This document shows, piece by piece, positions 1,277-20,233 of a stretch of 20,233 bases of DNA. This DNA is from a virus. Each line of letters starts with the position of its first letter. Position 1 is the stretch's first letter. A program made the translations under genes and the position numbers. The notes beneath the pieces are model-generated. The model searched no databases and was not told the origin of the DNA. It was given only the letters and a program-made list of their open reading frames with translations. The stretch is from the IMG/VR virus record IMGVR_UViG_3300025030_000473, positions 1 to 20,233 of that record; one strand, 5' to 3'.

Positions 1277-3034
1277 ATGTTAGATGGCTTCGAAAAAGCT
1301 TTAGATAGGATCTTTGCGCCGAAGGATGCTCCAAGGAGCAAACCTCTAGACGTTTCTCCTAAGAAGAGGGTTCTAGACAAGACCATCCACTATACTAAGC
1401 ATCATAGAGGTAATTGGTTTCGTCCTGAATATGACTTCAAGGAGATTCAGGTTGCGCAAGGCGTAGACACCTTCTTAGGAAAGGCAATACGTAAGAAAGT
1501 TGATCGCTTTATGCTTGCAGGTTACGAATGGGTCTGCAAGACAGATGAACCCTTACAGTATATTAAGCGTCGCCTGGGAGAGATGGAGATTGCAACCAAC
1601 ACTCCGTTTGACATCGTTTTAGAAAGAACAGTACATGATTTAACTCGTTTCAATAACTGTATGTGGGCCAAGGTTCGTGGCTCTGAGTTGAGTTCTGGTA
1701 AAGTCAGAACAGATATCAGTGGCGTACTGTTAGAACCAGTAGCTGGTTATTTCGTTATGCCGTTCGAGACCTTGGAGTTGAAGCATACGGTTGGTGGTGA
1801 GATCAAGAAGGTTCGGCAAAAACTTGAAGACGGGGAACGTAGAGAGTGGAAGCCGGTCGATATCATTCACTTTTATACAAATCGTCTTCCTGGTTTCTCT
1901 GTTGGTACTCCTGAGTTATGGGCAGCTTTAGATGATATAGCTTTACTCAGAAGAATCGAAGATAACGTTGAAGAGTTAATAGAAACGAATCTATTTCCTG
2001 TTTTCCATTACACAGTCGGAACTGATCAGTTTCCAGAGCGTTTTGCTCCTGACGGTTCTAAAGAAACAGACTTCGTAAAAAAGACAGTTGAGTACATGCC
2101 TGCTGGCGGTATATACGTTTCAGACCATCGTCATAAGATTGAGGCAGTTGGCTCTGAGTCTAAGGCTCTCCGTATTGAGGCTTACCTAGAGTATTTCAAG
2201 AAGCGTGTCTTTGCTGCAATTGGAGTCTCTCCCATTGACATGGGTGATGGTGGGGACTCCAACAGGAGTACGGCCAGCACGTTATCGAAGGGACTCATGA
2301 TGGATGTTGAGTTCCTCCAGCATACGATGAAGATATTCCTTGATTTCTATGTGGTAAACGAACTCCTTTTGGAAGGAGGTTTTGATCCACTTGATCCAGA
2401 GCAGAAAGTCTCTATCAGGTTTGGTATTATCGATAAAGGCGAGCGTTTAGCTTTCGAGAATAATCAAATACAGTTGTTTGCTAATAAGGTTTTAACCCAT
2501 ACAGAAGTACGTAAGGCTCTTGGGTATGCTCCGATGACTGATGAAGATGAGGAGGATACGTATTATAAGAAATACGAAGAACCTCTTGCGCTTCTTAAGT
2601 CTATGGTACCTGGATCGGCGGCTGGAGAGACGCTTGCTGCGTCTCCTACCTCTGCAGTTACTCCGGAAGCCATTAATAAAGAGAAGACGTTTGCTAAGCA
2701 GCAAGCAGCGGCTGCTGCTAAGGCTAAATCTACTGGGAGACCTTCAAACTCAGCTTCTACGGGGAGTCGGAGAAGTAGTGCTTCTAAAGCACGGCCTTCG
2801 AATCAAAGCGGTACGAGGCCTGGTCCGAAACTAACTAGAGACGTTAACTTGACCTATGGCGACTGTACTATTATTATCAAGGTAGACTCTAAGATAGATT
2901 CTAGGGACATTCTACAGTGGACTGAGACGGTTCTGTCTCAGTATAAAGAGCTGCAATCCTACGGAATCTCACTTAATACTTTAGCAAATACATTGCTACC
3001 CAAATTAAATACTTCTAGAGGTTCTGATGAGTGA
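1277..3034 (+). CDS. Portal protein (HK97/SPP1-like fold)
   Basis: The portal forms the dodecameric ring at one capsid vertex through which DNA is packaged and ejected and to which the tail attaches. The 585-residue protein shows the usual order: an N-terminal wing region (about 50-235), with the typical DIIHFYTNRLPGFSVGTPEL stretch at 195-214; an amphipathic segment at 219-240; and the stem/crown region with the FAAIGVSPIDMGDGG motif at 312-326, which matches the phage portal pattern of a Gly-Val-Pro turn followed by a Ser/Thr-rich loop. An acidic patch lies at 422-427 (DEDEED). Residues 466-518 are an unusual Ala/Lys/Ser/Arg-rich linker leading to a small C-terminal domain (519-585). The ATG at 1277 has AAGGGAAG upstream. 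The last 8 nt overlap the protease gene. Neighbouring protease and capsid genes confirm the assignment. Confidence 0.95.
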   Translation: MLDGFEKALDRIFAPKDAPRSKPLDVSPKKRVLDKTIHYTKHHRGNWFRPEYDFKEIQVAQGVDTFLGKAIRKKVDRFMLAGYEWVCKTDEPLQYIKRRLGEMEIATNTPFDIVLERTVHDLTRFNNCMWAKVRGSELSSGKVRTDISGVLLEPVAGYFVMPFETLELKHTVGGEIKKVRQKLEDGERREWKPVDIIHFYTNRLPGFSVGTPELWAALDDIALLRRIEDNVEELIETNLFPVFHYTVGTDQFPERFAPDGSKETDFVKKTVEYMPAGGIYVSDHRHKIEAVGSESKALRIEAYLEYFKKRVFAAIGVSPIDMGDGGDSNRSTASTLSKGLMMDVEFLQHTMKIFLDFYVVNELLLEGGFDPLDPEQKVSIRFGIIDKGERLAFENNQIQLFANKVLTHTEVRKALGYAPMTDEDEEDTYYKKYEEPLALLKSMVPGSAAGETLAASPTSAVTPEAINKEKTFAKQQAAAAAKAKSTGRPSNSASTGSRRSSASKARPSNQSGTRPGPKLTRDVNLTYGDCTIIIKVDSKIDSRDILQWTETVLSQYKELQSYGISLNTLANTLLPKLNTSRGSDE

Positions 3035-5293: not shown

Positions 5294-6649
5294 ATGACTA
5301 TACGGCGCTTCGGTTCGAATTTGAATCTGCGCGAAGACATTCTAGATTCCGTCACTCCTAATGTACTTGTGCAGAAAGAGGTACGCGCTCCTGCTGGTGA
5401 ATGGAAGCCAGCTGCGTGGCTCCCGATCGCCTTCACAAAGACAAATCAAGAGGCCGGAACAGATGCTTTTGTTATCTCTAAGGGAAAGGCCGTCGCCTTT
5501 GACCGTCAGGGACGTATTGTTCCTGCAGGTATGCGGCTTGCTCTTGGTGGTACTGGTACTTCGCTTACTTTGATCAACAGTGTTTGTCTTACCTACACTT
5601 CTACGGATGTTTCTTGGGGAGTTACAGATATAACGACAGGTGAGCGTGTTACAGCGGCTGTCACCTATACGATTAATGACGTAGCCGATGCTCTCTTAGA
5701 GCGTGGACTTGTTCTTGATCAAGAAGTTTCGACTGTTCCTCCTGATACACTTGCTCGTTGTCAGGAAGTTATCGATGCTTGGATTAGTCGTCCAATCGGT
5801 TTCTCTCATGATGATGTCTATGTATGGTCGGGACGTCCTGAGGATGGTGATCAGTTCTACACCAACTATAGCAAGCAGCATCTGATTTCCTTCTGGACGG
5901 AAGGTCAGCTAAAGGTGCCTCATGCTACTGCTGGTTCGACGGTAGATACGTTTGATGCTGGCGCTCTGGTTACGGAGGCCTATGCTGCTGGAGAGTCGGT
6001 TGGCCCAGGCGAGTTCTGGAATGCAACAAACGTTTCTCAGTTGGCACGTTATAGTGGAATTCTTACTGCTGCTTCTCCGGTTGTAGCTCTTGGTTTCTCC
6101 GAGCAGGATGTTGCTCCCGAAACTGAACGTACTCCACTTTCTCACGACCACCTGACTATCGATATTCTGACTCGCAAGCGCTCTGGTCCCGATAAGATCA
6201 CTACGGCTGGTGATTACTACTTAGACCATGAGGTCGGGGTTCTGTTCCTCCATAGTACGACTTGGGCCTCTCTGGCGGTTGATGCTGATACAGATGTTGC
6301 TGTGACTTTCTATAACTACGATACTGGTCTTGCAACAACTCAGCGTTATCCTCATTTCATGGGCGATGTTGTGAAGCCTGGCGATTTCGTTGCTGTAGAT
6401 GAGCGAAGCAACTATATTGTGGCTTCTACAGCACAGATTTCGGCTGGCCAAGAAATCGTAGGTCGCGTTCTTGAACTTCAGAATGAGCCTCGCGGCCTTC
6501 TGGCTAGTGTGAAGACGGCATGGAATATTTCCGGTGCTGCGGCGGCGATGAAGATGCCTGGTTCGGCTACTCTGGGTTATTCGGATGCGATTACCCTCTC
6601 TGGCGAGACAGTGGCAGATGAACTTGTTGTGTTTAACTTTAGAGTTTAA
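5294..6649 (+). CDS. Putative capsid accessory / virion structural protein
   Basis: A 451-residue protein between the protease and the major capsid protein, a position often held by decoration or head-fibre proteins. It looks beta-rich and soluble, with no signal peptide or membrane segment. Residues 56-79 contain TDAFVISKGKAVAFD followed by GRIVPAG, a pattern I recognise from phage structural proteins next to capsid genes. Residues 354-392 (a GDVVKPGDFVAVDERSNY stretch, then AGQEIVGRVL) suggest a beta-barrel-like surface module. The start has a strong AAGGAG at 5281-5286, and codon choice resembles the capsid gene, consistent with high expression. The stop TAA overlaps an ATG at 6649 by one base. 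The role in the virion is inferred from position and composition. It could also be a minor capsid or vertex protein. Confidence 0.6.
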   Translation: MTIRRFGSNLNLREDILDSVTPNVLVQKEVRAPAGEWKPAAWLPIAFTKTNQEAGTDAFVISKGKAVAFDRQGRIVPAGMRLALGGTGTSLTLINSVCLTYTSTDVSWGVTDITTGERVTAAVTYTINDVADALLERGLVLDQEVSTVPPDTLARCQEVIDAWISRPIGFSHDDVYVWSGRPEDGDQFYTNYSKQHLISFWTEGQLKVPHATAGSTVDTFDAGALVTEAYAAGESVGPGEFWNATNVSQLARYSGILTAASPVVALGFSEQDVAPETERTPLSHDHLTIDILTRKRSGPDKITTAGDYYLDHEVGVLFLHSTTWASLAVDADTDVAVTFYNYDTGLATTQRYPHFMGDVVKPGDFVAVDERSNYIVASTAQISAGQEIVGRVLELQNEPRGLLASVKTAWNISGAAAAMKMPGSATLGYSDAITLSGETVADELVVFNFRV

Positions 6650-6650
6650 T

Positions 6651-6655
6651 GGAGA
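6651..6655 (+). promoter_or_regulatory. Ribosome binding site that sets the capsid gene start
   Basis: GGAGA sits five bases upstream of the ATG at 6661. The in-frame ATG at 6649 has only weak purine sequence before it and overlaps the previous stop. The downstream ATG is therefore the better start. Confidence 0.6.
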
Positions 6656-6660
6656 CTACT

Positions 6661-7968
6661 ATGAAACTAAGATTAACAGATGGTAGCGAAGTAGTTCTCC
6701 CTGATTCCAAGCGGGAAGCCGGACAGTATTTGGCCGATCTCATCAGAAGTGGTGGGCGCGTTCCAGGTAAGAGCCAGAATCTTGATTGGCAGACTTTCGT
6801 TGAGAGTGCGCTGAAGCCTCGTGATGCCGTAACGGCTAGTGAGATTCGTCCGTTCCTACAAGCTTCGATGGAGATAATCCTTCGTGAGCCTGTAGAGCCT
6901 CTCATGACTATCACTCCGCTCTTCACTCGTATTATGGCTAAGGGCCTTGATACTCGCATCCTCGTTGGTGCGATGGGTGCAGTGACGGCTGGTGATGTTC
7001 AGGAAGGTCAGACCTATCCAGAAGTGAATTTCCAGGTGGGTTCTGGTATGCAGGTTGCTCAGATTGGAAAGTCTGGTATTGCTGCCAGCTTTACTGATGA
7101 AGCTCTCCGCTACAGTACCTGGGATATCATGGCGATGAACCTAAACCTTATGCGTAAGGCTCTGATTCGTCATAAGGAGCAGAAGGCTGTTTCTTTCCTC
7201 AAGGAATTGGGAGTTGAGCTATTCAATAACGTGACGCCTGCGACTTCGGCATTCGGTGTATGCACCGGACGTGGCCTTGATATGGCTGCGAACGGTTCGC
7301 CTACGATGGATGACCTCTTCAAGGGTATGGCTTTTATGAATGAGGAAGGTTTCCCGGCGGATACTCTTCTTATCAACCCTCTATTCTTCTACCTATGGCT
7401 ACAAGATCCTGTTCTTCGTAACATGATGCTAGCTCATGGTGGTGGAGCGTACTTCCAGAAGTGGGGCGGGCAGGCTGGTCCTCTTGATCCCTGGAGCAAC
7501 GGCTCGATGGGCGCGCAGGGGCCAACTCGTGGTAACACGATCGTTCCTGGTGGAACTCCTTCGGGAGAGACGCCGACTGGTGTCGAGGGTCGTGAGCATG
7601 GCATGACTGCCACGCCTGCTATTCCCGGATACTTCCCATGGCCGTTCCAGATCCTTGTCTCTCCTCTAGTTCCTTACGATCCCGAGACTCAGCTTGGAGA
7701 TATCTTCATGCTCAGTTCTGGTAACGTTGGGTTCCTCCTGGTGGATGAAGATCCCGTTCAGGTCGAGTGGCGTGACGAAGTCGATGAGACCGTAAAGGTC
7801 AAGATTCGTGAGCGTTATGCATTCGCGGTAGCGAATGAGGGTCAGGGCGTTGGCGTGATGAAGAATGTGAAGTTGGCCCGAAACTATTGGGACGGGACTG
7901 TGAAGGCCGCGACGCTAGACGTCGACGAAGAGATCGCAGCAGATGCCGACCTGTCGGCTGTGCTCTAA
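6661..7968 (+). CDS. Major capsid protein (HK97 fold)
   Basis: The main shell protein; many copies build the icosahedral head. From the ATG at 6661 it has 435 residues, against 439 from the ATG at 6649, which lacks a good ribosome site. Residues 61-100 (EIRPFLQASMEIILREPVEP, then a TRIMAKGL stretch) fit the N-arm leading into the E-loop region. EGQTYPEVNF (115-124), then IGKSGIAASFTDEALRYSTW (135-154), leads into the spine helix at 155-190, as in HK97-type capsid proteins. DTLLINPLFFYLWLQDP (234-250) matches the conserved strand-turn of the P/A-domain. Residues 257-322 form a Gly/Pro-rich insertion that could be a surface loop. No long N-terminal delta domain is present, consistent with scaffold being supplied by the preceding gene. 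A terminator follows 43 bases after the stop. Confidence 0.93.
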   Translation: MKLRLTDGSEVVLPDSKREAGQYLADLIRSGGRVPGKSQNLDWQTFVESALKPRDAVTASEIRPFLQASMEIILREPVEPLMTITPLFTRIMAKGLDTRILVGAMGAVTAGDVQEGQTYPEVNFQVGSGMQVAQIGKSGIAASFTDEALRYSTWDIMAMNLNLMRKALIRHKEQKAVSFLKELGVELFNNVTPATSAFGVCTGRGLDMAANGSPTMDDLFKGMAFMNEEGFPADTLLINPLFFYLWLQDPVLRNMMLAHGGGAYFQKWGGQAGPLDPWSNGSMGAQGPTRGNTIVPGGTPSGETPTGVEGREHGMTATPAIPGYFPWPFQILVSPLVPYDPETQLGDIFMLSSGNVGFLLVDEDPVQVEWRDEVDETVKVKIRERYAFAVANEGQGVGVMKNVKLARNYWDGTVKAATLDVDEEIAADADLSAVL

Positions 7969-7970
7969 TA

Positions 7971-8010
7971 GTCTCGATGTTGATATTCTAATCAGTCTTG
8001 ATGTATGATA
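7971..8010 (+). repeat. Imperfect direct repeat after the capsid gene
   Basis: GTCTCGATGTTGATA (7971-7985) is repeated as GTCTTGATGTATGATA (7995-8010), with one substitution and one inserted base. The copies start 24 bp apart and lie immediately before the terminator hairpin. This could be an operator pair, a duplicated protein-binding site or chance. Confidence 0.5.
7980..8009 (+). promoter_or_regulatory. Sigma70-like promoter candidate
   Basis: TTGATA (7980-7985) and TATGAT (8004-8009) are separated by 18 bp, close to the bacterial housekeeping consensus. The predicted start, about 8015-8017, falls inside the left arm of the terminator hairpin. Such a transcript would carry the endonuclease gene but not a complete terminator stem. 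It is a sequence match only. Confidence 0.35.
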
Positions 8011-8011
8011 A

Positions 8012-8031
8012 GGGGCGCCTTCGGGCGCCCC
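8012..8031 (+). terminator. Intrinsic terminator after the capsid gene
   Basis: A perfect 8-bp GC stem, GGGGCGCC / GGCGCCCC, encloses a TTCG tetraloop closed by C-G, which is an exceptionally stable RNA hairpin. The following sequence, TACTTATAT, is T-rich but has no long uninterrupted T run, so termination may be partial. This would give abundant capsid mRNA with some read-through to the neck genes. Confidence 0.8.
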
Positions 8032-8057
8032 TACTTATATCTGGAGATAAATGTCTA

Positions 8058-8843
8058 ATGAAAAGAATAGAAGTTGCTATAGGACAACAGTTTGGAGACT
8101 GGACTGTTGTTGAGGAGATTGAACCTGAGGTTTGGTATGGTGTCAAAGGGTCTAAGTTTATTCGTAAAGCATTGTGTAGGTGCAGTTGTGGTTTCTTGTT
8201 TGAAGTTCGTTTATGTGAGTTGAGAAATGGCGCTTCAACATGTTGCTTATGCTGCTCTTACAGAAAGAGGGGACATCAAGACCTAGACTTTCTAGGAAAG
8301 AGATTCTCGAAACTAACTGTTCTTCGGCGTGCCGATAGGACAGAGAAGGGCAGTCAGCCTGGGTCTTATTGGTGTTGTCAGTGCGATTGTGGAAATACCA
8401 AGATAGTGCCTGCTAGCCACTTGCTATCTGACTATAATGTTAAGTCGTGTGGTTGTGCTCGCTATCAAACTGGGCTCGACTCTTTGCAGTGGGGAGGCTA
8501 TAATGAAATCTCTGGCACCAGATTCGCTAATATCAAAAGAAATGCCACTAGAAGGTTGATAGAATTTGATTTGACAATTGAACAATTGTGGGACCTCTTT
8601 TTATTGCAAGAAAGGAAGTGCGCTTTGACGAATGCTGAACTCTACTTCGCTGTATCTCAAAAAACAGAGACATCAGCGACTGCATCTTTAGATCGCATTG
8701 ATTCTACCAAGCCATATACTCTCGGCAATGTCCAGTGGGTTCACAAGGAAATTAATTTAATGAAAGGGCACTTATCAGAAGATAGTTTTCTAAACTGGTG
8801 TAAGTTAGTTGTTGCTCATTCAGCTAGCATTGTGGAGGAATAA
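8058..8843 (+). CDS. HNH homing-type endonuclease with two zinc ribbons
   Basis: A free-standing nuclease of the kind that spreads through phage genomes by cutting alleles lacking it. From the ATG at 8058 it has 261 residues. Two related DNA-binding zinc ribbons come first: IGQQFGDWTV at 8-17 with C40, C42, C44 and C62/C63/C65/C66, and LGKRFSKLTV at 79-88 with C106/C107, C109, C111, C131 and C133. The nuclease domain follows: FANIKRNATRRLIEFDLT (156-173), CALTNAEL (188-195), then SLDRIDSTKPYTLGNVQWVH (210-229) and NLMKG, the pattern of phage HNH enzymes, with D212, D215, N224, H229 and N233 likely at the active site. GGAG at 8043-8046 is 11 nt upstream. A longer frame from a TTG at 7998 would cross the terminator and is unlikely. 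It separates the capsid gene from the neck genes. All key residues appear intact. Confidence 0.92.
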   Translation: MKRIEVAIGQQFGDWTVVEEIEPEVWYGVKGSKFIRKALCRCSCGFLFEVRLCELRNGASTCCLCCSYRKRGHQDLDFLGKRFSKLTVLRRADRTEKGSQPGSYWCCQCDCGNTKIVPASHLLSDYNVKSCGCARYQTGLDSLQWGGYNEISGTRFANIKRNATRRLIEFDLTIEQLWDLFLLQERKCALTNAELYFAVSQKTETSATASLDRIDSTKPYTLGNVQWVHKEINLMKGHLSEDSFLNWCKLVVAHSASIVEE

Positions 8844-12632: not shown

Positions 12633-14939
12633 ATGCCTTATGACAATATTCCACATGTCGGGGCAGCCTATAATGATGGTGGCCTAAGGGACATCACCTC
12701 AAGTGCACAACCTCGTATTCTGGCTATTGGTCCAGCTAGTAGTGGTATGACCTACGAACTGTGGAGAGTAAACAATATCCGGTCTGCTGAGGTTGAGTTT
12801 GGGGCGGCTACGCCTGTTTTAAAGTCATTGCATGAAGTTGCTGCTCAAGGAGCAGACAATCTTGCAGTGATGAGAATTGGTGGTCGTCAGGGCTCATTCG
12901 TAGTTACTGATAGCGCTGCGGCTACACTTACCATTGTTCCTGAATATAGGGACGATGAGATTATGGATCGTTATGCTCTTGCAATGGATGGTACTGGTAC
13001 CGCAAATCGCATTGCTGTCTACGATCTAATTGATCAGTCTTGGGTTTATGATAGTGACGAGATTCTGGTTATTAATCAGGGTATTGTCGATGTTGCCGAT
13101 ACAGGTGTAGACCTCTTCTCGGTTGGATCGTTTACTCTGCCTGATACAATGACCTCTTTTGCTGATCAGGTCACCGGTGACTTTACGGTTGAGAACGTTG
13201 CTACGATTACGTCTGTAGTAGATACTGCTGGTACTGACGGGACTAGCATGAGTCTGGTAGAGCACTATGCTGCGCTCAATACTGCGTATCATGTTCTAGA
13301 CTTCAAGGACGCCGATCTTGTTACTGCTCCGGGTGCGTATATTGATGCTGCAAACGTAGCCGATGGCGACTCACTTAATCTCTGGGCTGGGATGCCACTT
13401 GCTGGCACTTCTGATGCTCTTGGTTATGTGTGGCAGTACATCTACAGAGGTAAGATTTATACTTACTTTGTTGATAGCCTTACGTACTTCACTACTTTAG
13501 GTGCGGCTGTTCAGTCAAGTGTGACTCTTGCAATTTCGCTAACCTTAGAGGCAGTCAATGCTGGCGCCGGAGCGAATACGAAGTTTGACCTAGAAATTAC
13601 GGTTGGCGGTGGAAACACTGCTGTTGTTACTGAAGCTGCCGGTGTCGTTAGCGTGGTGGTAGATGTCACTGCTGCTGTGACTACTACTCTAGTTGCCGCT
13701 GGATATATTAATACAGCATTAGCTGCTTTTGCTCTAAGTAATGGTCTGTCTGCAAATAGTGTTCTGATTGCTTCTGGGGCTGCGGATGTTATTGCTGGAA
13801 TAGCTGGACCAACGCTTTCGGCGGCTGGAGCTGGCGGTAACGTTGTTACGCATACGATGCTGACTGGGGATACAACTCCGGCTGCAGTATCGACTAAGTT
13901 TGCAGCTGGTTCTGATGCCGAGCTTCGTGAGGTTAACTTTGCTCATCAGTTAGCCAGTTTCTGTAAACTCGCTTCAACGACTTGGAAGTCAATGATTGGA
14001 GCAGTAAGTTTTGCTTCTCCAACTAGTTGGAGTCGGTTAGATATTGCTGATTGGGCAGGTCAGCTTCCAGAGTTTACTTATGCTGGTTCTCAGCTTGTTA
14101 TTGATGCGCCAGCCGATAACGGGGTTGGTGTACTTGGTAACAAGTTCTTAGCAGGGTTCTCAGATACTGCTGGTTATCGTAATGCTCAGATTACTGATCC
14201 TGGTTCTGCTAATGATTCGCTCGCATATGGTGGTTTAATTACCACTGTTGGCGCATCTCTGCCAAATGGGTCTGACTGGCCTTATGGTATTGATGATGAT
14301 GATGAGGCAATCGATGGAGCCGGTGCTCCGGTTGATCTGGGTAAGCATTTGCTAGTTACTTACGATTGGCCAATTCATCGTAATTCATATAGTGGAGGTA
14401 CTTCTTATAGAGGTTCTCTTGAGGCTTCTGTACTAGGCAGACTCGCTGTAATGCCAGTGAACGAAGAGCCAATTGGTTTCAATGGCGTTATGCTAAAGGT
14501 TACTTCTCCTCCGCGTATTCATAGTACACAGCTGGACGATCTAGCTGAAGTACGTGCTTTGGGTCTGCGCTTTGAAGAGGGTCTTGGCTATGTCATGGTT
14601 ACTTCGAAGACTGCTGCTCATCCATCTAGTGACTATACTGAGGTGAGTACGATTCGTTGTGCTAACAGACTTCTTTCTGGTATCCGTGATATTGGCAAGA
14701 AGTATCTTGGTAAAGCTTTTACACCTGAGCGAGTTATTTCTCTTCAGGCGGCTTTAGATAGTTATCTGCTTGAGGAAGGTAAGGCTAAGATTCATCAGGG
14801 CGCTGGTGCAAAGATTACTTATACTCCTGCCGATCGTATAATTGGTAAGATTGATGTTCAATTGAGATTCGTGCCTCCGTTCTCAATTAGGTTAATTAAC
14901 GTAACTCTGTCGCTCGCAGCTGACGAGACCGAACTCTAA
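12633..14939 (+). CDS. Contractile tail sheath protein
   Basis: Forms the outer cylinder of the tail, which contracts to drive the tube through the host envelope. At 768 residues it is a long member of the family. The N-terminus (4-45), with a NIPHVGAAYND stretch and then PRILAIGPASSGMTYELWRV, is a typical sheath start. The C-terminal domain is diagnostic: DDLAEVRALGLRFEEGLGYV (635-654), VSTIRCANRLLSGIRDIGKK (671-690), AFTPERVISLQAALDSYL (695-712), then a final strand segment (734-762, ending in RLINVTLSLA), the arm that links neighbouring subunits. Residues 291-430 look like an inserted Ala/Gly/Val-rich domain, with AVNAGAGANTKF and a VSVVVDVTAAVTTTL stretch, probably exposed on the tail surface. 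A full AGGAGGT precedes the ATG. The tail tube gene follows. Confidence 0.9.
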   Translation: MPYDNIPHVGAAYNDGGLRDITSSAQPRILAIGPASSGMTYELWRVNNIRSAEVEFGAATPVLKSLHEVAAQGADNLAVMRIGGRQGSFVVTDSAAATLTIVPEYRDDEIMDRYALAMDGTGTANRIAVYDLIDQSWVYDSDEILVINQGIVDVADTGVDLFSVGSFTLPDTMTSFADQVTGDFTVENVATITSVVDTAGTDGTSMSLVEHYAALNTAYHVLDFKDADLVTAPGAYIDAANVADGDSLNLWAGMPLAGTSDALGYVWQYIYRGKIYTYFVDSLTYFTTLGAAVQSSVTLAISLTLEAVNAGAGANTKFDLEITVGGGNTAVVTEAAGVVSVVVDVTAAVTTTLVAAGYINTALAAFALSNGLSANSVLIASGAADVIAGIAGPTLSAAGAGGNVVTHTMLTGDTTPAAVSTKFAAGSDAELREVNFAHQLASFCKLASTTWKSMIGAVSFASPTSWSRLDIADWAGQLPEFTYAGSQLVIDAPADNGVGVLGNKFLAGFSDTAGYRNAQITDPGSANDSLAYGGLITTVGASLPNGSDWPYGIDDDDEAIDGAGAPVDLGKHLLVTYDWPIHRNSYSGGTSYRGSLEASVLGRLAVMPVNEEPIGFNGVMLKVTSPPRIHSTQLDDLAEVRALGLRFEEGLGYVMVTSKTAAHPSSDYTEVSTIRCANRLLSGIRDIGKKYLGKAFTPERVISLQAALDSYLLEEGKAKIHQGAGAKITYTPADRIIGKIDVQLRFVPPFSIRLINVTLSLAADETEL

Positions 14940-14951
14940 TAGGAGATAGGA

Positions 14952-15605
14952 ATGCCTACAACTACGTCCCTTGAGCTAAGTAAGAAATTCGCCAGCTTCT
15001 CTGGTGTAGATATCCGAGTTGTTATCGAGGGTCAGACTCTCGGCTCGCTCCAGGCTATCTCTTACGCTGTACAGCGTGAGAAGGCGCCAATTTATGTAAT
15101 GGGGCGAGTTGATCCTCTGTCCTTCTCTAGAGGTAAGCGCGGTGTTGCTGGAACAATTATCACGCTTATGCTAGACGAACACATTCTATTGCAGTCACCC
15201 TTTAAGGACATCAAGTTCGTTGCGGACAATGATGAGATTTATGCAATAGATGGAAACGTTCAGTCTGCAGGTTCAACTGCAGATCTAGAAGAGCTTGGTA
15301 ACGTAGACTTCACTGCAGGAGATCTGAGCGATAACTACACCATTGCAGCGGCTTGGTATGTTGATCAGATTCCGCCATTTGATGCAGTTGTGGTTGCGGC
15401 CAATGAGTACGGCAATGCAGCTACAATGCGTATCTATGGTATTGAGATACTGAATGAGGGTAGTGGCTTTAGTATTGATGATATTGTTATCGAGAACCAG
15501 ATGACGTACGTTTGTCGTACGATTCTACCCTGGCGTAAGCTTGGGTCCTGGGACTTTACGACAGGACTCTTCGATCCTGCAAGACAACAGAATCCTCTAC
15601 CGTAA
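14952..15605 (+). CDS. Tail tube protein
   Basis: Forms the inner tube through which DNA passes. The 217-residue protein has the expected motif order: FSGVDIRVVIEGQTLGSLQA (16-35), then QREKAPIYVMGRVDPLSFSR (41-60) and GKRGVAGTIITLMLDEH (61-77), a pattern I recognise from myovirus tube proteins. A later pair of strands follows, ATMRIYGIEILNEGSGFSID (157-176), then NQMTYVCRTILPW. It follows the sheath gene, the standard order, with AGGAGA upstream of the ATG. A strong terminator lies 28 bases beyond the stop. Two downstream genes share its motifs; this one is preferred as the main tube because it is adjacent to sheath, shortest and closest to the consensus. Confidence 0.87.
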   Translation: MPTTTSLELSKKFASFSGVDIRVVIEGQTLGSLQAISYAVQREKAPIYVMGRVDPLSFSRGKRGVAGTIITLMLDEHILLQSPFKDIKFVADNDEIYAIDGNVQSAGSTADLEELGNVDFTAGDLSDNYTIAAAWYVDQIPPFDAVVVAANEYGNAATMRIYGIEILNEGSGFSIDDIVIENQMTYVCRTILPWRKLGSWDFTTGLFDPARQQNPLP

Positions 15606-15606
15606 T

Positions 15607-15635
15607 TTCAGGTTATAGCAGCTTGCTGTTATAAT
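15607..15635 (+). promoter_or_regulatory. Extended -10 promoter candidate
   Basis: TGTTATAAT at 15627-15635 is a perfect extended -10 element. A weak -35 (TTCAGG, 15607-15612) lies 17 bp upstream. The expected start, about 15642, is inside the terminator's left arm. It would drive the two tube-like genes and the chaperone-like pair. It overlaps the right arm of a hairpin, so it could be structural rather than a promoter. Confidence 0.4.
15613..15634 (+). other. Upstream hairpin adjoining the terminator
   Basis: TTATAGCAG and CTGTTATAA pair over nine positions, including one G-U, around a CTTG loop. The last two bases are shared with the terminator stem, so the two hairpins compete at their bases. 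It has no T run of its own. It may stall polymerase or protect the 3' end of the tail tube message. Confidence 0.5.
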
Positions 15636-15657
15636 GAGGGGGCCAAGCCCCCTCATT
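15633..15657 (+). terminator. Intrinsic terminator after the tail tube gene
   Basis: An 11-bp stem, AATGAGGGGGC / GCCCCCTCATT, with a CAA loop, ends in TTTT. The stem is GC-rich at the top and AT at the base, a classic rho-independent terminator. It sits between the abundant tube protein and the less abundant genes downstream. Confidence 0.85.
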
Positions 15658-15675: not shown

Positions 15676-16494
15676 ATGTCTTTCAAAGATGTCACTAGGC
15701 AGTATAGATATTCATTTTCTGGTTCTGATGCTAAGGCCTGGATTTATTATCCAGGAGCCGAGGATATAGTCAAATCTCTTGAATCTCTCCATACAATTTC
15801 TGTCTCTATTCACGAGGCGAAAGGACAGGCAAGAGCACTGGGTTTTAAAGGCATCCGTGGCCTGTCTAGGGGGGTGAGGACCATAGGGGGGAGTATGATC
15901 TTCCTGGTAGTGGAGGACAATCCCTTGAGGGCTGCTATGGATGCTTTACAGGAGCTTTCGGCAAGACAAGTTTTTGATTGGCCAGGATGGTCTATAGATA
16001 GACACGAGGTAGGTACTGGTACTGCTATTGATAGTACCAATTTTAATAACCGAATGGCGACATTGCTACCGCCAATGAACATACTCATTCAGTATGTATC
16101 TGAAGGAGCTTATTGGTCGCATAGAACAGTTGCGCGTTCTGCAGAGAAGGATCCCGTTCCCGAAGGAGGAGAGGTTGTTTGGAAAGAGAACTTTAGTGTC
16201 TATGATATCGAAGGCGCTGCTGCATTGATTAGAAATGTTGAGTTTCTAGACGAAGGTATAGTAACGTCTATTAATGACGTAGCTACTGAAGTAACTTTTT
16301 CTTTCATTGCAACTGATTATAAACCTTTGTCTGCTCAAGTGTTTTCTAGTGGAGACAGAGCCTTCTTAAGAGCTACTGAAGACGAGCAGAAGGATTTGGC
16401 TCTTCGTGGTAAGCTGTTCTCTCAACGGGCTGCTTTGAGAGTTAGGGAAGAAAAGAATGCAATTGATACAGTTAGCAGGAACAGTACTATCTAG
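15676..16494 (+). CDS. Tail-tube-like protein, second copy
   Basis: A 272-residue protein whose motif order follows the tail tube protein. SLESLHTISVSIHEAKGQAR (34-53) aligns with the tube's SLQAISYAVQREKAP region. LSRGVRTIGGSMIFLVVEDN (63-82) aligns with FSRGKRGVAGTIITLMLDEH. IEGAAALIRNVEFLDEG (178-194), then TEVTFSFIATDYKPL, aligns with the tube's last strands. The middle (95-165) is an insertion not seen in the tube, and the C-terminus (230-265) is a charged helix. It probably forms a special ring, such as the tube initiator in the baseplate or the tube end, or a protein bound to the tube lumen. It is preceded by its own ribosome site and possibly a promoter within the terminator region. 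The homology is read by eye; the exact role is inference. Confidence 0.65.
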   Translation: MSFKDVTRQYRYSFSGSDAKAWIYYPGAEDIVKSLESLHTISVSIHEAKGQARALGFKGIRGLSRGVRTIGGSMIFLVVEDNPLRAAMDALQELSARQVFDWPGWSIDRHEVGTGTAIDSTNFNNRMATLLPPMNILIQYVSEGAYWSHRTVARSAEKDPVPEGGEVVWKENFSVYDIEGAAALIRNVEFLDEGIVTSINDVATEVTFSFIATDYKPLSAQVFSSGDRAFLRATEDEQKDLALRGKLFSQRAALRVREEKNAIDTVSRNSTI

Positions 16495-16505: not shown

Positions 16506-17255
16506 ATGGCGCGATTATCCTATGAGTACTTCTGTGGCGCAAACGTTGTCGTTGAAATCGAAGGTATGCCGATCTTAGAAGCAGCAGGTCTTTCTTGTAA
16601 TATCTCTGAGTCTAAGAGGCCTATCTATGGTTATAGTAGTAGACACTTCGACGCTGTCGCTAGAGGGCAGGTAATCGTCCAAGGTTCTTTGGTAGTGAAC
16701 TACGTGCACCAAGACTATTTGTTTAGAGCTATTGAATTAGGACTACAAGAGAGAGGACTGCTATCTAGTACAGAACTCTCTACGTTACCTGTATTAGATT
16801 CTGCTTCGAAAGAGTTTCTAGATCTTATGGAGGATGCTAAACAACGAGATGCGATGGCAACGGAGATGCTAAGCAATTATCCAGAAAGTGTTAGATTAGC
16901 TCAGGCATTTAAGGAGCGATACTGGAATCCTCCAATTAGCCAGGGAGGGTTACAGCCCCTTTTCCCTAATCCGCATGATTCTTTTGGTGGCCTTGACATT
17001 CAGATTACTTTTGGGGAAAGATCTGTCAGTAATCAGAACAAAGGTGTTACTGGTTTACTTATTGCCGATGCTTACATTACTGGCAGAGGACTGCCGATTA
17101 GAATAGACGAAGAAACAATAGTAGAGGAGTATCCGTTTTTTGCGAGGAATATCTATAGTGTTAGTCCTAAGTATTTTGAAGTTCAGTCACTGACTGAACC
17201 GGGTACTGATATTATTTTGGATAGTCCGTTCACTACGATACTTCCAGTTGGTTAA
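16506..17255 (+). CDS. Tail-tube-like protein, third copy
   Basis: A 249-residue protein that lines up with the tube protein at the N-terminus: GANVVVEIEGMPILEAAGLS (11-30) matches GVDIRVVIEGQTLGSLQAIS, ISESKRPIYGYSSRHFDAVA (33-52) matches the QREKAPIYVMGRVDPLSFSR region, and RGQVIVQGSLVVNYVHQDYL (53-72) matches the next strand. A charged helical insertion covers about 80-140. The C-terminal strands (163-217; LDIQITFGERSV, then GLLIADAYITGRGLPIRID) align with the tube's last sheet. Strong GAGGAGA precedes the ATG. It lies between the second copy and the chaperone-like genes. A baseplate hub, tube-initiator or tube-tip role is plausible. Only the family relationship is supported by sequence. 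Confidence 0.65.
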   Translation: MARLSYEYFCGANVVVEIEGMPILEAAGLSCNISESKRPIYGYSSRHFDAVARGQVIVQGSLVVNYVHQDYLFRAIELGLQERGLLSSTELSTLPVLDSASKEFLDLMEDAKQRDAMATEMLSNYPESVRLAQAFKERYWNPPISQGGLQPLFPNPHDSFGGLDIQITFGERSVSNQNKGVTGLLIADAYITGRGLPIRIDEETIVEEYPFFARNIYSVSPKYFEVQSLTEPGTDIILDSPFTTILPVG

Positions 17256-17264
17256 GGAGAGAAA

Positions 17265-17807
17265 ATGAACTTAAAAGATAACTTAACATCCGAGTCAAAG
17301 TTAATGTTGGAGCCTGACGAGGAGGTAAGTTTAGATGATGCGCTTAATATGTTCTTACATGAGGGCTCGGAAGAAAAAGAAGAAGAGTCAGTATTAGATC
17401 AAGGGCAAGCAATTCGGGCAGAGATACTCTCTCTGTTTCTCGGCAGAGCAGATGCTCCTGAGCAAGGAACGATTGATGCTTGGAAGGCTAAGCATGATGG
17501 GGCCGTGTATGTCTTCGCAGCAGATGCAAGAAATGTTTTTGTTTATACGCATTTGACTGTTTCACAGTGGGAAAAAATACAACAGGTTCTGCAGCAGAAG
17601 TCTCAGGCTGCGCCCGAAGCGCAGCAAGCTATCGAAGCTTTTCTAAAGGAAAAGGTTCTCAGAGAGGTTATTCTTTGGCCAGAACTTTCAAAGACATTCT
17701 TTAAGACATGTCCTGCAGGACTTCCGAATACGCTGTATGAGCTTATTATGCTGCAATCATATTTCCTAAATCCTCAGCAAGCGATTTCATTAACTACGCA
17801 GCTCTAA
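17265..17807 (+). CDS. Putative tail assembly chaperone 1
   Basis: A 180-residue soluble protein in the place where tail assembly chaperones are encoded, just before the large protein in the tape-measure position. The N-terminal 45 residues are acidic and probably disordered. The folded part contains APEQGTIDAWKAKHDGAVYV (64-83), LTVSQWEKIQQVL (97-109), a helical segment around 120-137 (VLREVILWPEL) and CPAGLPNTLYELIMLQSYF (149-167). I recognise the WKxK...PAGLP...LYExI pattern from large-phage proteins next to tape-measure genes. AAGGAGAG precedes the ATG. The stop overlaps the next ATG by one base (TAATG). No clear slippery heptamer was found in the 67-bp overlap of open frames, so frameshifting as in lambda G/GT is not supported. 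Confidence 0.55.
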   Translation: MNLKDNLTSESKLMLEPDEEVSLDDALNMFLHEGSEEKEEESVLDQGQAIRAEILSLFLGRADAPEQGTIDAWKAKHDGAVYVFAADARNVFVYTHLTVSQWEKIQQVLQQKSQAAPEAQQAIEAFLKEKVLREVILWPELSKTFFKTCPAGLPNTLYELIMLQSYFLNPQQAISLTTQL

Positions 17808-18490
17808 TGGTTGATCTTTCGACTCTATTGAAGAGCAGTGCAATCTTTAAGACTGTATTCCCCAATGGGAATACAGTTGAGTGGAGATTGCTAACTCTAA
17901 AAGAGTATCGAATCTTTAGTGGATTGCGTTCTTTAGAAACGTTATCTGAAGAGTATATTGCATTTAGTGTATTCAAACACTGTTATCAGGGAAGTTTTGA
18001 TTTACTTAATAAAAGAATGCCTGCTGGTATTCCTATTACTATAGGTAGGTTGATTCTGTATCTTTCTGGAGATTGTGAAAAAGAAACAATTAAGAGTGAC
18101 ATCACGATAGCTAGGGCAATGTATCAGGGGGCAGCAGTAAACGAACACATGAAACGTGTTGTCTTTACTGCGTTCCCTGTATATAAAATTGAAGATGCTG
18201 ATTCTTGGACTCGACAGGAATTGCTGGAGAAGTTTGCTATTTCTGAAGTTCTGCTAATTGAAAGAGGTATTGTCGAGAAGCCTTTTGATGTCGATAGTAT
18301 TACTTTTGGAGGAGAGCAAGTCCAAGAGGATTCTATTGTTCCGATAAATTTCGAAACTGATTCCCAAGCTCTTACAAAGGAATTGGGCCCGTGGGCTCAG
18401 AGTGATATTATAGAAGAAGAAGTGAACCAGAAGAAGAGAGTCCTTAGCAAGAAGCAAAGTGCTCAATTAGATAAAATCCGTAGAGGTTAA
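17807..18490 (+). CDS. Putative tail assembly chaperone 2
   Basis: A 227-residue protein started by the overlapping TAATG, with no Shine-Dalgarno sequence in the preceding 15 bases, so its translation probably depends on ribosomes finishing the gene before it. It repeats features of its neighbour: WRLLTLKEYRIF (26-37) resembles the neighbour's LTVSQWEKI, and MPAGIPITIGRLILYLSGD (71-89) resembles CPAGLPNTLYELIMLQSYF. The part after residue 95 is additional, with helical EDADSWTRQELLEKFAISEV (129-148) and a highly charged, basic C-terminus. Position and coupling suggest that it works with the preceding protein in folding or loading the next gene's product. A tail-structural role cannot be excluded. 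Confidence 0.55.
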   Translation: MVDLSTLLKSSAIFKTVFPNGNTVEWRLLTLKEYRIFSGLRSLETLSEEYIAFSVFKHCYQGSFDLLNKRMPAGIPITIGRLILYLSGDCEKETIKSDITIARAMYQGAAVNEHMKRVVFTAFPVYKIEDADSWTRQELLEKFAISEVLLIERGIVEKPFDVDSITFGGEQVQEDSIVPINFETDSQALTKELGPWAQSDIIEEEVNQKKRVLSKKQSAQLDKIRRG

Positions 18491-18492
18491 CT

Positions 18493-20233
18493 ATGGCTGA
18501 TCAACCATACGGTAGTACAGTATGGACGAGTCAAGATAGACCTCCGGAAAGAGACTGGAAGGCTCAAGGAGTTGCTTTAGGCGCTGCTGTGGGTGCTGGG
18601 GTTGTCGGTGCTCGCTGGGCGACGACTCCTGGTGCTTCAGGTGCCAGACCCCTTGATACAATGCTCAGGGTGGCTAGGACGGCAGGTAACCTGGCTCCGT
18701 TTCAGATACTTAATACTTTCCGAGCACCAGAGATACTCAGCCCCTATGCCTCTCCGCTTTACCAACAACTGGAAGCGGTAGGAGACGTATTTGAGGGTTC
18801 TATTGGCGCTGAGTATCTGAAGGAAGCAGATACATTTGAGTACCTTCGGAAGCTTACCGGTTTAGATACTGCTGAATTAGCTAAACGGGGAATAACTCCA
18901 GGGTTGGTTGGAGCTTCTGATGAGGTTGCTAGTCGTCTTGTATTCCAGAGAACAGCTAAAAGTGCTACTGGAAGTTTGTTTACTGAAGTAAATGGTAAAA
19001 GGCATTTATTAAATGACAAGGTGATGTTGCAGCAGTTCACTGGTGAGAACCTAGACTATGCAGCAATAATCGATAAGAAGTCTTCTATTAATAGAGGAGT
19101 CCATGCAACTCTGCAAGCTATGGGTTTCATGGAAGAGGGGAACGATCCCAAGAGTTTATTTAAGTTTGCGGGGAAGAGACCTGAGGGAGTTGCTAAGAGA
19201 CCGGGTTTCATTCCTGTACCAGCCCTAAGAGCCGGTTTTGGTTCGGTAGATGAATTCTTGCAGGGCTCGACTCTTGCTAGAGCATTACCAGCGTTCTCAA
19301 TGGAGCGCTTTAATAGGCTCCTGGGAGGGTTTTCCGATCAGGTACTAGGAAAGACTACGGGTGGTATGCTCAAGCGCCTAGGGCTAGGTTTAAATGTCAC
19401 TAGTGGGCCTGCTTCATCTATGTTCTTCCGTTTTGGTGGAAAGGCTGCGCTAGTTGGCGGAGCAATTATAGGAGGTTCTCAAGTAGATTGGGTTCGACGG
19501 CAGTTTGGAGATACAGGGCAACTCGCTGCTTCTGGAGTTTTCGCAGCGGGTGCTTCTTATCTAACTCACAAAGCTGGGCTTGGTGGACGTGCTTCGCTGT
19601 TCGCTGGGGTTGCTAGTTTCTTTGGGCAGATGGTTTTGCCTGGTTTCGATCAAGGAGTAGTCCCAGGGTTAGCTACGGTTTATACAAGATCCCAGGAATT
19701 GCGTGGAGCTGCGGTAAATCCTTTTAATTACTATAGAAGGACTGGAGAGGGTTTTCTACCAGGTATTAGTTCTTGGCAAACAGGTGCCTTACTTGGAGTT
19801 GGAGTTCTTACTGCTGCTTACGGAAAGATGTCTCGAACTCAAGGGGGTATGCCCTATCCCAGTCTAATGTCAGGAAGGGGAATTCCCCAAGCTATTATGG
19901 ATAGATGGGGAGGTGAGTTAAGTCAATATGGGTTAGCTCCTCAGTCTCTTGGAAGTGTTCTCAAGCAGCCGTTAGACACAAGGGAGATATTCTGGCAGAA
20001 GATGCTTGTTCATAAAGAGGCTAAGCAACGCATCCCAGCTAGTGTTCTTAAGCAATTACAGCAAGAGTATATTCAGGGTGGAAGGTATACTACTGGAAGC
20101 ATTCGAAGAAGATTGATGAGTCAGTATTCTAAGGTATTTGGTGCTGATGAGTTAGCTACGCATATGAATGGTTTATGGTCTGCGTCTGAAAAGATGTTTG
20201 ATGACCTACAACCTCGTAATGCAATCAATAAGT
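18493..20233 (+). CDS. Large virion protein, possible tape measure, 3' truncated
   Basis: An open frame runs from the ATG at 18493, with AGAGG six bases upstream, through 580 codons to the edge of the window without a stop. Position after the chaperone-like pair suggests a tape measure or another internal tail protein. A glycine zipper, GVALGAAVGAGVVGARW (26-42), with G26, G30 and G34 spaced by four, looks membrane-active. Further small-residue hydrophobic stretches occur at 314-330 (GGKAALVGGAIIGGS), 343-358, 365-385 and 430-443. The rest alternates basic helices with Gly/Pro-rich links, e.g. NPFNYYRRTGEGFLPG (409-424). No long coiled coil, typical of tape measures, appears in this part, and no lytic domain is seen. 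Membrane-inserting segments would fit a pore for DNA entry, but this is inference. Confidence 0.7.
   Translation, partial: MADQPYGSTVWTSQDRPPERDWKAQGVALGAAVGAGVVGARWATTPGASGARPLDTMLRVARTAGNLAPFQILNTFRAPEILSPYASPLYQQLEAVGDVFEGSIGAEYLKEADTFEYLRKLTGLDTAELAKRGITPGLVGASDEVASRLVFQRTAKSATGSLFTEVNGKRHLLNDKVMLQQFTGENLDYAAIIDKKSSINRGVHATLQAMGFMEEGNDPKSLFKFAGKRPEGVAKRPGFIPVPALRAGFGSVDEFLQGSTLARALPAFSMERFNRLLGGFSDQVLGKTTGGMLKRLGLGLNVTSGPASSMFFRFGGKAALVGGAIIGGSQVDWVRRQFGDTGQLAASGVFAAGASYLTHKAGLGGRASLFAGVASFFGQMVLPGFDQGVVPGLATVYTRSQELRGAAVNPFNYYRRTGEGFLPGISSWQTGALLGVGVLTAAYGKMSRTQGGMPYPSLMSGRGIPQAIMDRWGGELSQYGLAPQSLGSVLKQPLDTREIFWQKMLVHKEAKQRIPASVLKQLQQEYIQGGRYTTGSIRRRLMSQYSKVFGADELATHMNGLWSASEKMFDDLQPRNAINK

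Follow-up and report, generated by a model that had tools for sequence, protein, structure and literature searches.

The window, meaning here the whole stretch of DNA analysed (20,233 nucleotides; positions 1 to 20,233 of IMG/VR virus record IMGVR_UViG_3300025030_000473), is by its genes a structural module of a contractile-tailed phage. Its landmarks are as follows.

1277-3034: portal
6649-7968: major capsid
12633-14939: sheath
Starts at 14952, about 15676 and 16506: three tube-like proteins
18493-20232, + strand: tape-measure-like ORF, extending past the end of the window

Two small genes, referred to below as A and B, sit between the third tail-tube-like gene and the tape-measure-like ORF. 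Two small genes also lie between the tubes and the long ORF in KLEB27-3, MTATph1 and ME3, whose homologues of the first tube protein are 40%, 39% and 31% identical to that of the window, respectively. The annotation of ME3 follows similarity to Bacillus phage 0305phi8-36 throughout, and its gp033 is named 'putative tail chaperonin'. Across the other loci introduced below, the tape-measure-like ORF at the equivalent site is complete in 15 of 33 (1345-1474 amino acids); the others stop before the ORF does and truncate it.

Directly after the first tube gene, at 15634-15656, lies a terminator-like hairpin (GAGGGGG/CCCCCTC) with a T-rich tail; the mechanically called ORF start at 15634 falls inside it, so the second tube gene likely begins at 15676. 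Counting the window, 34 of 60 loci have a terminator-like hairpin behind the first tube gene. Downstream of the capsid gene and before the gene that follows it, a TTG-start ORF (7998-8843), for which a Pfam search gave no match, presumably resembles an HNH homing endonuclease. In MTATph1 and ME3 (loci L063 and L064), tube-like proteins after the sheath gene are labelled 'major head protein', a label that looks wrong because KLEB27-3 names the homologue tail tube.

Phage lambda makes a short and a long tail assembly chaperone, G and GT, from one gene by ribosomal slippage. With names taken from that system, the pair in the window is laid out as follows.

17254-17259, + strand: Shine-Dalgarno sequence AAGGAG of gene A, from the sequence and its duplex energy
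17265-17807, + strand: gene A, short (G-like) tail assembly chaperone of 180 amino acids, from the ORF, relatives adjacent to B in 33 other distinct loci and the fold match
17469-17801, + strand: predicted chaperone (G-like) domain of A, residues 69-179, common to B, from VIA-align matches to 3fgx, 3klu, 2ob9 and 5ir0
17805-17809, + strand: TAATG stop/start overlap, B lacking a Shine-Dalgarno sequence
17807-18490, + strand: gene B, long (GT-like) tail assembly chaperone of 227 amino acids, from the ORF, relatives and model
17810-18115, + strand: predicted chaperone domain of B, residues 2-103, from VIA-align matches to the same four solved structures as A
18116-18487, + strand: T-like C-terminal extension of B, helical and then a low-confidence tail, from model pLDDT and secondary structure

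Both ORFs are as the initial annotation placed them, and the junction it described reads ctc-TAATG-gtt, the stop of A (17805-17807) sharing a base with the start of B (17807-17809). Its further statement that the second gene has no ribosome site agrees with the best anti-Shine-Dalgarno duplex energies in the window, +1.1 kcal/mol for B and -9.2 kcal/mol for A. The A protein of the window, whose N-terminal part is encoded at 17265-17468, and that of locus L003 (190 amino acids) are missing most of a long N-terminal region; other A proteins of the window clade have it and reach 240-330 amino acids in total.

We examined the proposed duplication by profile-profile comparison, using hhalign with profiles of 38 A-type and 34 B-type sequences. 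Residues 80-172 of A aligned with residues 13-94 of B (probability 88, E 3.1e-6) at a score of 47.5, compared with 28.9 for the best of 100 column-shuffled controls and 16.1 for the reversed control. BLASTP of window A against window B alone gave nothing (E 1.7), so the kinship of these two proteins is visible only with profiles. The sequence motif on which the claim of relatedness had been based is real, with LTVSQW...PAGLPNTLYELIMLQS in A and LTLKEY...PAGIPITIGRLILYLS in B falling in the same hhalign columns, although the consensus as first written runs about one position off after T-(L/I)-x2, where both proteins read L-I. Homology within a single phage is clear for MTATph1 CDS24/25 (42% identity over 95 amino acids, E 4e-28) and KLEB27-3 gp029/gp030 (E 9e-15), and only borderline for ME3 gp033/gp034 (E 0.018). 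The layout is plainest in MTATph1, where a 98-residue domain stands alone in one protein and is followed by an extension of about 70 residues in the next; likewise, the hhalign alignment and the model of B present the long form as the short-form domain plus a helical extension. On these comparisons, A and B are paralogues with one domain in common.

Structure prediction, proposed as a check of the chaperone-like assignment, favoured it. AlphaFold2 models of A (pLDDT 83.3) and B (pLDDT 83.8) contain a domain with the same order of elements, namely a helix, two strands and helices, and VIA-align returned an identical set of top four structures for both: 3fgx, 3klu (YqbN), 2ob9 (the HK97 tail assembly chaperone) and 5ir0. 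We take 3fgx, 3klu and 5ir0 to be tail chaperones as well, although of the four only 2ob9 carries that title. For the A model, the four Z scores were 8.0, 7.6, 7.5 and 6.1, with 7.5-8.0 for 3fgx, 3klu and 2ob9, and the next match scored 2.4. For the B model, Z was 8.8 for 3fgx, 5.9 for 5ir0, 4.7 for 3klu and 4.5 for 2ob9, the last two being weak matches next to unrelated helices at 4.4. With Foldseek, neither model reached E 0.001 against any PDB entry, and PHROGs and Pfam returned no meaningful family for either protein. The models support a predicted chaperone fold for both A (69-179) and B (2-103), in the case of B mainly through the match to 3fgx.

Viral-contig scans using A and B as queries found no close relatives. 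Among phage records, tblastn with window A returned one relative, KLEB27-3 gp029 (E 9e-5), plus three further rows at E 8 that are chance, and tblastn with window B returned none. Relatives were therefore collected by scanning with the tube protein. The short-gap set, or window clade, consists of 34 distinct loci, the window and 33 from the tube-protein scan, after removal of exact duplicates (L010, L015, L021, L035, L044). Near-copies of L089 (L090, L092, L093, L114) were also removed, as were L101, L131 and L193, whose contigs are those of L047 and L062. Five loci that have a short gap but fall outside the window clade were kept apart (L063, L064, L085, L086, L089). The long-gap set comprises 13 loci with an A-B gap of at least 19 nt, the near-copies L071 and L075 both counted. 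The remaining tube-scan loci, in which the pair could not be recognised for reasons of length or divergence, were left out, and nine metagenome-assembled loci from a genome-contig scan stand outside all counts. The start of B in L059 was mis-called mechanically; 12413 was used instead, except in the scan for slippery heptamers.

The gap between A and B is -4 to +14 nt in all 34 loci of the window clade. In reporter experiments on stop-start reinitiation, output fell by 40-80% at +14 nt and was nearly lost at +38 nt (available text of PMC10666635), and by that measure the gaps of the 34 loci are within the range where reinitiation works. At a duplex-energy threshold of -4.4, chosen in this analysis, a good Shine-Dalgarno sequence precedes A in 28 of 34 loci and B in 11 of 34 (weak in the other 23); some bacteria rely little on Shine-Dalgarno sequences. 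The sequence is weaker for B than for A across the 34 loci (Wilcoxon p 7.6e-5).

We compared folding energies of coding windows with those of shuffles in which the protein and its codon usage are preserved. Across the window clade, folding was strongest over nt 1-300 of B (mean z -2.2, -2.6, -1.9 and -1.6 in successive windows), with no such peak towards the 3' end of A (-0.5 to -1.2) or at the start of the tape-measure-like ORF (-0.7 to -1.1). Over the first 180 nt of B, mean z was -3.3, with z below -2 in 29 of 34 loci and structure absent in five (L024, L030, L034, L036, L056); the long-gap relatives gave a mean of -0.46, with 2 of 13 below -2, and among the short-gap loci outside the window clade one of five passed the same cut-off. 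A stricter local null, which also preserves dinucleotides along with codons, gave a mean of -2.49 for B codons 1-80 (21 of 34 below -2), -0.59 for B codons 81-160 (2 of 34), -0.45 for the last 80 codons of A (3 of 34) and -0.55 for B of the long-gap loci (1 of 13); the window itself reached only -1.43. We conclude that the 5' region of B is under synonymous constraint for RNA structure, shown statistically at the level of the clade. In the window, two features belong to this region.

17807-18076, + strand: region of B (first ~270 nt) under synonymous constraint for RNA structure, as a group signal
17841-17890, + strand: mRNA hairpin of 21 bp near the 5' end of B, with a folding energy of -25.5 kcal/mol and without a T-run; its fold z of -6.9 is for a segment picked after being seen

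The first 120 nt of window B rank first of 208 coding windows (z -4.85); when seven further loci were scanned over their full length, the most structured window of B ranked between first and ninth. Hairpin positions vary among loci, with maxima near nt 60, 140 and 230, and six of the 34 window-clade loci (L023, L026, L033, L038, L039, L055) have a hairpin with a T-rich tail in the first ~130 nt of B. An Rfam scan of 17200-18500 had no match at E 1 or better. Folding of the antisense strand is likewise below its shuffles (mean z -2.55, compared with -3.3 for sense, p 0.004), and part of the B signal could therefore be symmetric. Sequestration of the start codon was considered and found unsupported: the B start is no less accessible than in shuffles (mean z -0.13), so the structure does not act by simple start sequestration.

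Among the long-gap relatives, a terminator-like hairpin with a T-run lies in the A-B gap of 11 of 13 loci, compared with 0.01 expected from dinucleotide shuffles; the count becomes 12 of 13 if L073, where the terminator extends past the called start of B, is included. The element is located in one locus as follows.

L001, 15337-15370: intrinsic-terminator-like hairpin between the chaperone genes

Further loci with a terminator in this gap are L049, L054, L059, L060, L061, L070, L071, L072, L075 and L136, and in KLEB27-3 the gap holds a 10-bp stem and T6. Where only A was found, a terminator follows it in L069, L137, L139, L144 and L047 and is absent in L140 and L062; L005 ends at that point. 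At the A-B junction of the window, an intrinsic terminator was looked for and not found. On a tree of tube proteins, the loci with terminators are largely separated from those with structured B (5 and 8 label changes needed, versus 15 and 20 with shuffled labels). They form mostly two clades, so the locus counts are not independent events. Intrinsic transcription stops have been measured by sequencing after the tube and tail chaperone genes of Listeria phage CKA15 (available text of PMC12282133), which makes the terminator reading plausible for the long-gap relatives. CKA15 resembles them in having terminators directly after tube and chaperone genes, but its stops were measured, whereas those described here are predicted.

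Profile, fold and synteny show A and B to be a tail assembly chaperone of the lambda G/GT type encoded by two genes, of the kind carried by 0305phi8-36-like myophages. The best overall explanation, to which we give a probability of about 0.72, is a 0305phi8-36-like two-gene G/GT chaperone with coupled genes and B held below A. An ancestral G-like gene was duplicated, A keeping the chaperone domain with a variable N-terminal part and B carrying the same domain at its N terminus fused to a T-like helical extension; with its own domain and extension, B needs no frameshift. A would be translated from its own good ribosome site, and most B would come from ribosomes that finish A at its UAA and start again at the AUG overlapping it, the route that the initial annotation had suggested for setting the ratio; the 11 of 34 loci with a good Shine-Dalgarno sequence for B count against this route. 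Hairpins in the first ~180-270 nt of the B mRNA may keep B below A, making RNA structure a second candidate control beside reinitiation, and a terminator in the A-B gap of the sister clade, if leaky, would have the same effect. Against the explanation as a whole also stand the five loci without structure in B, the -1.43 of the window under the strictest null, the accessible start of B, the varying hairpin positions and the weak matches of the B model to 3klu and 2ob9. By analogy with the known biology of G and GT, A and B would coat the tape measure during tail assembly.

The strongest competing account grants the known two-gene chaperone and has B expressed independently, near-equimolar to A, with the short gap as ordinary operon packing. 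The RNA structure would then serve another role; for instance, it could protect the 3' end of the mRNA that carries the tube and A genes upstream, be processed by RNase III, or slow elongation so that B assembles with A during translation. In prokaryotes, gaps of -4 and -1 occur more often than any others, and subunits of complexes are over-represented among the genes they join (available text of PMC10666635), and the 11 loci with a good B site, the unchanged accessibility of the B start and a window hairpin of 21 pairs with no T-run all suit this account. Yet a good Shine-Dalgarno sequence stands before A in 28 of 34 loci and is lacking before B in 23 of them, and the alternation with terminators in the sister clade points to control that sets A above B. 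We regard independent expression as a serious but rather doubtful alternative to coupled genes with B held low.

In the window, no stop codon interrupts the frame of B over the 22 codons that precede its start, which would leave room for a hidden programmed frameshift or stop readthrough that fuses A to B as in lambda GT. We consider this very improbable. Among the 34 loci the open stretch ranges from 0 to 22 codons and is 0 in four, and B stands in frame 0, 1 or 2 relative to A in 9, 14 and 11 loci; no conserved frameshift joins the two genes, since the gaps of -4 to +14 fall in all three frames. In-frame slippery heptamers (XXXYYYZ) occurred in 3 of 35 loci scanned, L059 included, and are absent from the window. 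An A-B frameshift is thus unsupported, and the subtype in which the long form arises by programmed frameshifting does not describe a pair whose frames vary and whose B is a complete ORF with its own copy of the chaperone domain. The proposal that the pair stands in place of a frameshift pair fits the lack of a conserved frameshift arrangement together with the shared chaperone fold and profile match. A last reading, in which the two small tail proteins are not related and their motif is alike by chance, could appeal to the empty BLASTP of the window pair and the E of 0.018 in ME3, and is extremely improbable given a profile match far above shuffles, clear within-phage homology in the MTATph1 and KLEB27-3 pairs and the same fold matches.

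We infer that, in place of frameshifting, one clade uses coupling together with RNA structure and the other a leaky terminator. The wider proposition is tentative, and we would rate its chances somewhat short of even: that the long chaperone is kept scarce, in exchange for frameshifting, by stop-start coupling plus coding hairpins in one clade or a leaky intrinsic terminator in its sister, and that stoichiometry is kept by three unrelated mechanisms, namely recoding, RNA structure with coupling, and transcription attenuation. The ratio of short to long chaperone is thought to explain the strong conservation of frameshifting in phage tail genes. A lineage without frameshifting, and with terminators or structured coding RNA instead, makes it testable whether selection preserves the ratio itself, and B is an example, conserved among loci, of a phage gene whose synonymous sites are constrained by RNA structure.

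Measured against known systems, the pair resembles G/GT-type chaperones in position, lying between tail tube and tape measure in the window, KLEB27-3, MTATph1 and ME3, and in fold, through the matches to 2ob9, 3klu and 3fgx. Phage G retains a frameshift tail assembly chaperone, gp181/gp182 (available text of PMC8570332). Like A and B, the chaperones of lambda and phage G are a short and a long form with one common domain made beside the tape measure, but they come from one gene with programmed slippage and those of the window from two genes. T4-like phages, a different lineage, also have two genes and no frameshifting, with separate short and long fused chaperone genes (PRFect paper, citing Vladimirov 2022; available text of PMC10885494).

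The closest precedent is gp143/gp144 of 0305phi8-36, described by Hardies et al. 2007 as a two-gene tail chaperonin with a paralogous domain, no frameshift and, for gp144, no recognisable ribosome site (available text of PMC2147016). A and B are likewise two paralogous genes without a frameshift, and the second, at +1.1 kcal/mol, lacks a ribosome site. According to the same portion of that paper, the paralogous domain lies at the C-terminal end of the first protein and the N-terminal end of the second, the first protein has an extra N-terminal domain, and the pair stands just before the tape measure region, as in the window; the published pair is one gene away from the tape measure, whereas window B directly precedes the tape-measure-like ORF. 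The link between the window and 0305phi8-36 runs via the annotation of ME3 gp033 as similar to YP_001429634, with gp143/gp144 compared by their published description, and the A profile matches ME3 and KLEB27-3, both already members of that profile. The core finding, a two-gene chaperone whose second gene is missing a ribosome site, has thus been known since 2007. The description of 0305phi8-36 in the available text of PMC2147016 mentions neither structured RNA within the second gene nor terminators ahead of it, and a limited search of open-licence literature found no report of a terminator in the chaperone gene gap or of RNA structure in the second gene. As far as these limited searches show, what is new is the folding of B RNA in the window clade and the terminators in the A-B gap of its long-gap relatives.
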